From Dechloromonas agitata is5 (GTDB lineage: Bacteria; Pseudomonadota; Gammaproteobacteria; Burkholderiales; Rhodocyclaceae): DNA of 64,000 nucleotides. The notes beneath the pieces were generated by a model that saw only the letters and a program-made list of their open reading frames with translations, had not been told where the DNA came from and searched no databases. Below are positions 8,690 through 16,340 of the stretch, piece by piece; the stretch's first letter is position 1; each line of letters begins with the position of its first letter. The position numbers and the translations under genes were made by a program. The stretch is taken from contig NZ_KI912532.1 in the NCBI RefSeq assembly GCF_000519045.1, positions 2,781,867-2,845,866 on the forward strand. The letters are read 5' to 3'.

Positions 8690-8698
8690 TGCTAGAAT
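8690..8698 (+). promoter_or_regulatory. Extended -10 promoter element upstream of the DarA-like gene
   Basis: TGCTAGAAT is an extended -10 (TGn plus TAGAAT at 8693-8698). No strong -35 is seen, as expected for extended -10 promoters. Transcription would start near 8705, giving a leader of roughly 23 bases before the proposed TTG start at 8728. It would drive the nine-gene cassette that follows. Confidence 0.5.
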
Positions 8699-8727
8699 CC
8701 GGCCTCCATTCATTACCAGCCGCCATC

Positions 8728-9678
8728 TTGAAGCGCGTTCTCGTCGTCGACTATTCGCAATCCGGGCAGCTGTCCGAGATTGCCGCCCAGCTGATTGCTC
8801 CGTTACGCGACGACGGTCATGTCGTGCATCGGGAAACCCTGGTTCCGGTCGAGCCCTTCCCCTTTCCCTGGCCCATCGTGGACTTTGTCGACGCGATGCC
8901 GGAATGCGTGCAACTCGATGCACCGCCGCTCAAGCCACTGTCGATTGCCGCCGATGCCGATTTCGATTTGGTCATCCTGTGCTACCAGGTCTGGTTTCTG
9001 TCTCCCGCCCTGCCGATCACCGCCTTCCTGCACAGTACGGAAGGCAAGCGCCTGATCGGTGGCAAGCCGGTCGTCACGCTGGTCGCCTGCCGCAATATGT
9101 GGCTGTCCGCGCAGGAAACGATGAGCCGACTGATCACCGAAGCGGGCGGCACGTTGTGCGATCACATCGCCCTGACCGACAGCGGCCATCCGCTCGCCAC
9201 CTTCGTCACGACGCCGCGCTGGGTGCTGACCGGCAAGCGCGACCGCTTTCTTGGCCTGCCACCGGCCGGCGTGGCGCCCGAGGAAATCCGCGCCGCCCGC
9301 CGCTTCGGTCAAGCTCTGGCCGCTGCCCTTGACCGGAATGACGAAACGACCGGCCAGCCGATGCTCAGCGGTCTGCGCGCGGTCACCGTCAATCCGCGCC
9401 TGGCGATCAGCGAGCGGGCCGGTCGGCGGGCCTTCGGGGTCTGGTCGCGCCTGATCCGGGCATTCGGCCAACGCGGCAGCTGGCAGCGGCGCCCTATCCT
9501 GCTGGTGTTTTCGCTCTACCTGATCGTGATGGTGATCACGGTGGTTCCCAGCAGCCTATTGTTACAATGGCTGCTTTCCCCGCTGCTGAAATCGCGACTG
9601 GAGGGGTTGCGCGCTCGGCTGGAACTTCCAAGCGGGTCACAGGCATTCAATCTAGAAAAATATGACCAGTCACGGTAG
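8728..9678 (+). CDS. DarA-like flavodoxin-fold protein (dialkylresorcinol biosynthesis family) with a C-terminal membrane segment
   Basis: A 316-residue protein that resembles the DarA family, which in dialkylresorcinol and flexirubin-type pathways acts with the ketosynthase DarB and is thought to aromatise the cyclised diketone. The N-terminus [14 protein letters not shown] is a flavodoxin-like FMN-binding strand and loop, and [15 protein letters not shown] is a second conserved cofactor-loop region (about 80-95). A strong hydrophobic segment near residues 255-285 ([15 protein letters not shown] and following) suggests membrane anchoring. I choose the TTG at 8728 because the longer ATG form at 8596 would start upstream of the extended -10 box and adds no family sequence. 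It overlaps the next gene by 17 bases. Function is inferred from family and context only. Confidence 0.8.
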
Positions 9679-14585: not shown

Positions 14586-14589
14586 ACGG

Positions 14590-15672
14590 ATGGCGAGAAC
14601 CGTTTTCATCGCCGGCAGCGGCCTGTTCTGCGCCCGCGGCGACTCGCCGAGCACCGTGCGCGATGCCTTGTGGGCCGGGGAATGCACCGCGGCTAGCCGG
14701 CAACTGGGCGAACGGCGCTTTCCTTACTTCCCGCTGCCGCTGGCCGAAACGGACTGGCTGCGACGGGCCGAACAGGCGATCCGCCATGTCGGCGGCCAAC
14801 TGGGCAACTTGCCCATGGATACGCCGCTTTTCGTCGCCTCGTCCTCCTTCCAGATTGGCCATTTCGAGCAACAGGGGGCGCCCTTCGCCATGCCCGTCGG
14901 CAGTGCGTCGTTCACCAGGCAAATTGCCGACTGGCTGGAGCTGCGCGGCCCCCGGTACAGCTTTTCGAACGCCTGCGTCTCCGGCTTTTCCGCGATCGAT
15001 GCCGCCAGCACCCTGATCGCCGCCGGGCTGATCGACGAAGCGCTCGTTCTTGGCGTCGAACTCGCCAACGCCAGTACGCTGGCCGGTTTTGCCGCCATGG
15101 AACTACTCTCGCCCAATGGCTGCCACCCCTTCGATGCCCGGCGCAACGGCCTCGTCCTCGGCGAGGCGGTGGCGGCAGTACGCCTCACGGCCCAACCCGG
15201 CCCGTGGCAGATCGTCGGGCAGCGCAACGGCCTCGACGGCTATTCGACAACCGGCCCCGATCCCGCTGGGAACCCCATCGCCCGGGTCATGACCGATTGC
15301 CTGCACGCCGCCGGGCTGACGCCAGCCGACATCGACCTGGTCAAGGTGCAGGCCGCCGGCTCGCCGGGCACCGACCTGGCCGAAGCGCGCGCCCTGCATC
15401 AAGTGTTCGGCCCGGCCATGCCGCCGCTCCTCTCGCTCAAGCCTGCCCTCGGCCACACGCTTGGCGCCAGCGGCATCGCCGAACTGGCTGCCCTGCTCGC
15501 CTGCATCGAGGCCGGGCAAGTTCCGGCCACCGCCCAATTCGCCGAACCGGATGCCGAAATCGGCCTGGCCCCCACCGCCCACCGCCAGGCGGCCGATGTC
15601 CGCTGCACCCTGCTCAACCTGATCGGCTTCGGTGGCGGCCTGGCCAGCCTGATCGTGGCGCGCGATCGATGA
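14590..15672 (+). CDS. Beta-ketoacyl synthase (FabF-like fold) lacking the first catalytic histidine
   Basis: A 360-residue ketosynthase, shorter than typical FabF (about 410). The nucleophile Cys129 is present (SNACVSGFSAID) and the second active-site His289 is present (ALGHTLGASG). The position of the first His of the standard EAHGTGT motif is Ala256 in VQAAGSPGTD. Decarboxylative condensation normally needs both histidines, so the protein may be a non-decarboxylating acyltransferase-like KS or may condense by another route. It lies in the DarAB-type cassette, 4 bases after the ACP gene, and its stop overlaps the next start (ATGA). Aryl-polyene clusters contain comparable divergent KS proteins. 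Confidence 0.85.
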   Translation: MARTVFIAGSGLFCARGDSPSTVRDALWAGECTAASRQLGERRFPYFPLPLAETDWLRRAEQAIRHVGGQLGNLPMDTPLFVASSSFQIGHFEQQGAPFAMPVGSASFTRQIADWLELRGPRYSFSNACVSGFSAIDAASTLIAAGLIDEALVLGVELANASTLAGFAAMELLSPNGCHPFDARRNGLVLGEAVAAVRLTAQPGPWQIVGQRNGLDGYSTTGPDPAGNPIARVMTDCLHAAGLTPADIDLVKVQAAGSPGTDLAEARALHQVFGPAMPPLLSLKPALGHTLGASGIAELAALLACIEAGQVPATAQFAEPDAEIGLAPTAHRQAADVRCTLLNLIGFGGGLASLIVARDR

Positions 15673-16340
15673 TCCACCTCGACGCCGCCTTCAGCCAGCA
15701 ATTTACCCCGGCCGAACTCCCGGCCGCCGTGCGCGCCGCCCTCGGCAAGCCGCTGCGCCGCGCCGCCGTACTCACCCAACTCGCCCTGCTCGGCGCCTTC
15801 GCCGCCCTGCCGGCTGAACGCCGTTCGCTGCCGACGGCCCTGCTCTGGCAATCGACCAGCGGCCCGCGCCTGGAAACGCTGACCCTGCTGGCTGAAATCG
15901 GTGGAGGCGGCGGCGAGCCGATGCCCTACGATTTCCTGGCCACCCAGCCGGCGCTCGCCGCTGCGCAGATCCAGCCCTTCCTGCCGGGCCTGCAGGCGGC
16001 CAGCCACGTGCCGCTCGACAACGCCAAAGACGCAAACTGGGGCCTGCTGCTCAGCCTGGCGATGGCCTGGCTGAACGAGGGCCGCTACAGCCAAGTGCTT
16101 TGTGCCCAACTCGATCACCGGAGCGACCTGGGCAGCGGCCACTGGCTGTTGTTGAGCCGGGCACCCGGTACCGCGTCACTGGCCAGGCTGGCGATGGCCG
16201 CCAGCGAACCATCCGGCCTGCCCGACATCCCCGAGCTGCCAGCGCGAATCGCCCATTGGCTAGCCAGCCCCGGGCCATCGCGCCGGCAGCTCGAATCTCC
16301 CGCCGGTCGCGGGCAGACGGTAGAATTCGCCCGACTTTAA
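15669..16340 (+). CDS. Half-length ketosynthase-like protein (possible chain-length-factor type partner)
   Basis: A 223-residue protein that resembles the N-terminal half of a beta-ketoacyl synthase (Ketoacyl-synt_2 / chain-length-factor group found in aryl-polyene clusters). The stretch LPTALLWQSTSGPRLETL fits the strand and loop before the KS active site. No catalytic Cys-containing motif is evident. The ATG at 15669 overlaps the previous stop by four bases, so the two proteins are likely made together and may form a heterodimer. It is the last gene of the cassette; cnoX follows 18 bases after it. Family call is tentative. Confidence 0.6.
   Translation: MIHLDAAFSQQFTPAELPAAVRAALGKPLRRAAVLTQLALLGAFAALPAERRSLPTALLWQSTSGPRLETLTLLAEIGGGGGEPMPYDFLATQPALAAAQIQPFLPGLQAASHVPLDNAKDANWGLLLSLAMAWLNEGRYSQVLCAQLDHRSDLGSGHWLLLSRAPGTASLARLAMAASEPSGLPDIPELPARIAHWLASPGPSRRQLESPAGRGQTVEFARL

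Follow-up and report, generated by a model that had tools for sequence, protein, structure and literature searches.

Gene clusters of the DarAB/StlCD type, known from Photorhabdus and some pseudomonads, make free dialkylresorcinols (DARs). For Azoarcus sp. BH72, Table 1 of Schoner et al. 2014 (PMC3949708, covered here in portions) lists azo0293-azo0283 as darA-B-D-E-F-G-H-I-C-J-K, with darE annotated as a BtrH-like peptidase, darF as an ATP-binding cassette (ABC) ATPase, darG and darH as PHD and PilT, darI as a permease, darC as an acyl carrier protein (ACP) and darJ as a ketosynthase. According to the same portions, this operon and two unlinked arc loci are assigned to arcuflavin, a xanthomonadin-like aryl polyene joined to a DAR. 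They also state that the Azoarcus DAR proteins yielded a DAR in E. coli in earlier work cited there, that the Azoarcus pigment contains that DAR joined to the polyene, and that both cluster types also occur in Dechloromonas aromatica, Variovorax paradoxus and Sideroxydans lithotrophicus. The flexirubin pathway of Chitinophaga pinensis and Flavobacterium johnsoniae, as given in the covered portions of PMC3992019, is alike in that a DarA/DarB resorcinol is esterified to an aryl polyene. Here we analyse a nine-gene operon in a stretch of 64,000 nucleotides from Dechloromonas agitata is5 (the window; C1:2781867-2845866 on a 3.63-Mb contig). The operon is already described, the same genes having been published in the same order in 2014 (PMC3949708, Table 1), and we consider it very probable that it is an arcuflavin-type dar operon, likely to yield a yellow, cell-bound pigment, an arcuflavin-like ester of a polyene and a DAR.

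Once darG and darH are removed, the order darA-B-D-E-F-I-C-J-K, found on one strand in the window, equals that of BH72 as tabulated in the portions covered, the genes being matched by order and annotation; the window genes follow in that order, with darA identified by position only and darK by its fold. The first-pass annotation of this DNA had taken the combination for an undescribed one, and since Table 1 of PMC3949708 lists these genes in an identical order, that reading is wrong. By order and annotation the nine genes match a characterised product cluster gene for gene, the outcome that the annotation had named beforehand as speaking against it. The difference is that in BH72 the PHD/PilT pair stands between darF and darI, whereas in the window darF ends at 13101 and darI starts at 13105. 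The two genes are also close together in other relatives (for example loci L009-L026 except L010), and we treat the PHD/PilT pair as variable and not as defining for an arcuflavin-type dar operon. In locus L032, from an Azoarcus metagenome bin, about 1 kb (13513-14559) is inserted at the place where BH72 carries PHD/PilT; it contains other small open frames, one of which resembles an acyl-CoA thioesterase by eye. What emerges is a tidy operon assigned to a published pigment class, with small additions to the known pathway, namely the fold of DarK, a probable Cro/C1 helix-turn-helix in DarD and a DarJ-DarK fusion in one relative.

The gene order recurs elsewhere. Among 80 DarB loci, taken as the best of at least 580 that encode a relative, nine genes are collinear in 23 and eight in 12 more, in which darK was not found or was cut off (in at least two of the 12, L014 and L033, the contig stops where darK would be). 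In 11 further loci A-B-D-E is accompanied by F-I-C-J on the opposite strand, and in four A-B-D-E is otherwise arranged. The remaining loci are broken by a contig end within 7 kb past DarB (16), lack darE despite at least 3 kb of room (13), or lack it with little room (1).

The polyene half of the predicted pigment would be provided from the window's own chromosome. An arc-type polyene locus lies about 1.8 Mb off, so that aryl polyene genes of the arc/xanthomonadin type and the dar operon are found in the same genome. They are unlinked to dar in both organisms, occupying two loci in BH72 (PMC3949708, portions covered) and a single stretch of about 22 kb in the window's chromosome. This stretch (C1:915.6-937.6 kb) encodes a FAD-dependent halogenase-like protein, an FkbO/Hyg5-type chorismatase (Pfam PF21168, 129.4 bits over 27), MipA, acyltransferases (one of them Lip_A_acyltrans), a glycosyltransferase, a ketoreductase (NF004200, 380.3 bits over 273) and ketosynthases, both half and full. 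It also encodes a methyltransferase, an MMPL exporter, a LolA-like protein, an AMP-binding ligase and an ACP; other genes are interspersed. One of its ketosynthases (C1:925347-926540) is over the PRK09185 cut-off (554 bits vs 407), and a further ketosynthase lies at 936398. A chorismatase and an AMP ligase were thus found here, whereas the flexirubin polyene starter comes from tyrosine via an ammonia-lyase (PMC3992019, portions covered). Profile searches of the nine window proteins agreed with the first-pass annotation that a ketoreductase, a dehydratase and an activating enzyme are all missing from the cassette itself. Its further suggestion, that acyl chains are borrowed from primary metabolism, holds for the resorcinol, both of whose chains come from fatty-acid metabolism in the covered portions of PMC3949708 and PMC3992019. 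It probably does not hold for the acyl group of the BtrH-like DarE, which, since polyene functions are encoded at the second locus, would come from that pathway.

In the pathway that we propose, DarB would condense two fatty-acid intermediates and cyclise the product, and DarA would aromatise this to a 2,5-dialkylresorcinol, as reported for the Azoarcus DAR proteins. Judging from its gene content, the arc-type locus would build the aryl polyene on an ACP, and DarE would then transfer the polyene acyl group from an ACP onto one of the phenolic hydroxyls of the resorcinol. Export from the cytoplasm, of either the resorcinol or the ester, may fall to DarF and DarI, while DarC and the DarJ-DarK ketosynthase/chain-length-factor pair may provide an acyl chain or pass one on. 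That the locus is a DAR operon equipped with a BtrH-like acyltransferase and an ABC exporter had been recognised at the outset, and profile matches back this assignment, as they back the identities of genes 2 to 8.

DarB (9662-10813), a condensing and cyclising ketosynthase, is a member of the StlD/DarB family by model NF005293 (588.5 bits, cut-off 450) and falls below the narrower DarB model NF053539 (485.9 bits, cut-off 550). Its closest solved structure is StlD 5gk0 (E 4.5e-141), the DarA-DarB pair being common to the window and the DarAB/StlCD-type clusters, and its closest named relatives are Dechloromonas (86% in L009, 85% in L011); L011 is Dechloromonas sp. CZR5, which shares the operon. 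Gene 1 (8728-9678, TTG start) is called DarA, the DAR aromatase, by its position ahead of DarB. No Pfam or NCBIfam model matched it, including NCBIfam at E up to 1, nor did any solved structure at E up to 1. A DarA homologue is present in 77 of the 80 DarB loci, on the opposite strand in one (L061), and the TTG start is kept in 9/10 aligned sequences, L009 having ATG; a plasmid search with DarA gave three Streptomyces records, annotated as hypothetical protein. The exporter consists of the ATPase DarF (12190-13101; PF00005, 117.7 bits) and the ABC-2 permease DarI (13105-14319; PF12698, 132.1 bits). DarC (14316-14585), the ACP of the operon, is a phosphopantetheine-binding protein just above the Pfam cut-off (PF00550, 21.7 bits, cut-off 20.8) and below that of NCBIfam PRK09184 (48.1 bits, cut-off 70), and its D42-S43-L44 is kept in 53/53 sequences.

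DarE (11195 or 11198 to 12190; DarH_acyl in the lettering of NCBIfam, which differs) matches PF14399 (BtrH_N, 161.5 bits) and PF16169 (DUF4872, 187.5 bits), and belongs to the BtrH-related acyltransferases of NF053550 (DarH, 479.3 bits, cut-off 300). BtrH itself takes the acyl group carried by an ACP and passes it to an acceptor. In DarE, Cys12 is kept in 66/67, His125 in 67/67 and Asp143 in 67/67 aligned sequences, and these three residues may form the active site; the conservation counts for DarE, DarJ and DarK use automatic trimming of open frames, and a few rows are partial. Solved structures gave only two matches to DarE, at E 0.18 and 0.65. In a survey of 101 genomes of the family, a BtrH-type gene was over the cut-off in 15 and PRK09185 in 39. 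The latter, which we assume to mark polyene synthesis, was over its cut-off in 15/15 BtrH-positive genomes vs 24/86 others (Fisher 8.4e-8, a value that is too strong since the genomes are related). In a survey of 150 genomes of the order, which overlaps the first in G000 and G136, the corresponding counts were 4/4 and 42/146, with one genome (G171) having PRK09185 over the cut-off and a BtrH-type match below it; 14 control genomes had none over the PRK09185 cut-off. That BtrH-type genes over the cut-off occur only alongside the polyene-type ketosynthase in this family points to the BtrH-like protein as the ester-forming enzyme, within the scope of the 101 genomes surveyed. This tracking, the acyl transfer by BtrH and the three kept residues make DarE the best candidate for joining polyene to resorcinol. 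In the portions of PMC3949708 covered the ester-forming step has no assigned gene, and those of PMC3992019 propose the ligase-like FlxW for this step in the flexirubin pathway. The plasmid search with DarE gave 91 records, all below 60% identity; among the ten listed, six carry the annotation BtrH N-terminal domain protein and the other four have no annotated feature.

Alternatively, DarJ-DarK could form the ester bond, working as an acyltransferase instead of a decarboxylating ketosynthase, with DarE doing something else and the rest of the pathway unchanged. DarJ (14590-15672) is an ApeO-like ketosynthase above the Pfam cut-offs (PF02801, 81.4 bits; PF00109, 68.2 bits), and lies below the 407 bits of NCBIfam PRK09185 (179.5 bits). 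Its best solved relative by sequence is 6qsp_A (E 3.6e-32), of the ApeO-ApeC pair of aryl polyene synthesis (PDB 6qsp). DarK (15669-16340) matched no Pfam or NCBIfam model. Its predicted model, from an alignment that took 18 of 24 DarK sequences, has a predicted local distance difference test (pLDDT) score of 88.2 and the fold of a small ketosynthase/chain-length-factor subunit. The top Foldseek match is 6qsp_B of the ApeO-ApeC complex (E 4.3e-9, 15% identity in the alignment), and the top VIA-align match is 6kxf_B, the ishigamide chain-length factor (Z 15.1, root-mean-square deviation (rmsd) 3.5, 215 aligned), followed by general ketosynthases and thiolases at Z 13-14; 6qsp is not among the 50 rows, which excludes nothing. 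On this modelling DarK is probably ApeC-like. DarJ-DarK differ from ApeO-ApeC in belonging to a dar operon and in their low identity. In L032 the two are a single open frame of 539 codons (16094-17710), which fits a heterodimer. As for catalysis, DarJ keeps Cys129 in 49/49 sequences and the second His in 48/48 rows with letters, while the first His is Gln in 27/48 (in the window and 16 of the 17 DarJ rows of L009-L026), and DarJ matches the model of the cispentacin acyltransferase subunit AmcF, at 122.7 bits, below the cut-off of 325. An acyltransferase role for the pair would be in keeping with both observations; on the other hand, the first His is kept in 21/48 DarJ, including those of the Rhodocyclales L025, L030, L032 and L034, and the BtrH-like DarE, of the family expected for ACP-to-acceptor transfer, keeps its Cys, His and Asp. 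We therefore regard ester formation by DarJ-DarK as improbable.

A different possibility, and the reading of the first-pass annotation, is that what the operon makes and exports is a DAR either free or differently acylated, its acyl groups being drawn from primary fatty-acid synthesis. Organisms with DarAB that produce free DARs are known, which speaks for this possibility, as does the lack of a ketoreductase, dehydratase and ligase in the cassette; moreover, 14 of the 80 DarB loci have no BtrH-like match, one of them with little room. In the stretches examined of L040, L044, L047, L052, L058, L060, L066 and L077, tblastn gave no match to D-K, a difference between the DarAB/StlCD-type clusters and the window. 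Against it stands the family survey, with the BtrH-type gene over the cut-off only where the polyene-type ketosynthase is present. The genomes reached through loci (30 of the 80 loci chosen, 28 genomes covered) gave a similar figure, with PRK09185 over the cut-off in 18/20 BtrH-positive vs 4/8 BtrH-negative genomes (p 0.04). The four Photorhabdus genomes without BtrH (L047, L058, L060, L066) have no PRK09185 match over the cut-off, but the contrast is not clean, because the BtrH-negative genomes of L035, L040, L044 and L067 have the ketosynthase. We consider a free or otherwise acylated DAR very unlikely as the product. A new resorcinol exporter pathway and acyl supply from primary metabolism only were rejected, the former because the covered Table 1 of PMC3949708 matches and the latter because the polyene locus is present in the chromosome.

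Several observations weigh against the assignment to an arcuflavin-type operon. For D. agitata is5 the likely product is predicted from its genes, the correspondence with BH72 rests on gene order and the annotation in the paper, and the mutants described in the covered portions of PMC3949708 are in arcK and arcT, with no dar mutant among them. In the polyene locus, the chorismatase (232.5 bits, cut-off 325) and LolA2 (55.7, cut-off 125) are below the NCBIfam cut-offs, though over those of Pfam. AGP_acyltrn (49.4, cut-off 102.95) and the best of the halogenase models (222.8, cut-off 900) are likewise below theirs. No NCBIfam model matches the half ketosynthase, identified from its position, or the methyltransferase at E 1e-8, the latter being above Pfam cut-offs. 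As to co-occurrence, that PRK09185 marks polyene synthesis is assumed, and the Fisher values are too strong because the surveyed genomes are related. One genome of the family (G208) combines a weak BtrH-type match below the cut-off with the lack of any PRK09185 match over the cut-off, the BtrH-positive genomes of L065 and L084 have none over the cut-off, and half of the eight BtrH-negative genomes have one.

The third gene, darD (10803-11198), encodes 131 residues and belongs to the DarG_fam of NCBIfam (NF053536, 171.9 bits, cut-off 70), whose DarG is darD here. The flexirubin DarG model NF053545 is related, but DarD lies below its cut-off (122.8 bits, cut-off 170). An AlphaFold2 model built from 44 relatives (44 of 69 DarD sequences entered the alignment) has a pLDDT of 88.8. 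In VIA-align its residues 62-131 superpose on DdrO 6rnz_A with Z 9.5, rmsd 2.2 and 64/66 aligned, a score at which, by the tool's own warning (Z below about 13), a match can be chance in helical models. Most rows are Cro/C1 domains, and SinR, NGO0477 and the helix-turn-helix (HTH) domain of the enzyme HppE also appear. Foldseek with the model gave nothing at E < 0.001 (best E 0.03), the DarD profile gave six matches among solved structures (best E 0.18), and Pfam HTH profiles did not match the window DarD, with HTH_26 matching weakly in 4/44 relatives (best E 0.021). From the model, the C-terminal part of DarD probably has the Cro/C1 (XRE) helix-turn-helix fold. Trp94, Arg98 and His99 are each kept in 68/69 sequences, and their near-invariance across distant bacteria is easier to reconcile with a conserved partner than with an operator that changes. 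It is possible, at rather long odds, that DarD, whose name so far says no more than biosynthesis protein, is a Cro/C1-fold regulator of the operon or a structural part as in HppE, and that at the same time DarJ-DarK is an ApeO-ApeC-type pair that has lost its first catalytic His in the close relatives of the window and some other betaproteobacteria and would move acyl groups without decarboxylation.

The nine open frames lie on the plus strand between 8728 and 16340 and were found as first described, neighbours overlapping by 1-17 bases or sitting 3-4 bases apart. The extended -10 promoter element TGCTAGAAT (8690-8698, plus strand) reported ahead of them also held up, being kept in 10/10 upstream regions in an alignment of the window with nine relatives selected from the 80 loci, with C or T as its third base and diverging flanks. 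A plain sigma-70 scan of 8550-16500 gave zero sites (0.6 expected by chance) and thus did not pick up TGCTAGAAT.

Arrangements among the relatives vary. In Pseudomonas and other gammaproteobacteria, A-B-D-E faces J-C-I-F on the opposite strand (L048, L059, L070-L073, L075, L079, L080, L082, L085 and L086; L070 has no match to I), and a polyene-type ketosynthase and ketoreductase lie in the same stretch in L048, L059, L070, L072, L073, L079, L085 and L086. Polyene genes adjoin the cassette in some relatives, for example L063, L074 and the Pseudomonas loci L072, L073 and L079. The Azoarcus bins L069 (8284-9840) and L076 (1303-2898) keep A-B-D, with no BtrH-like match in the stretch examined despite room. 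Downstream of darK, a thioredoxin/tetratricopeptide repeat (TPR) protein gene (16359-17216, same strand) begins 18 bases past its end, with no terminator-like site separating the two in the scan of 8550-16500; this gene may be co-transcribed with the dar operon. As in the window, pyrG lies upstream in 19 of the 80 loci (L009-L027), and the thioredoxin/TPR gene keeps its place after darK in 15 of these 19.

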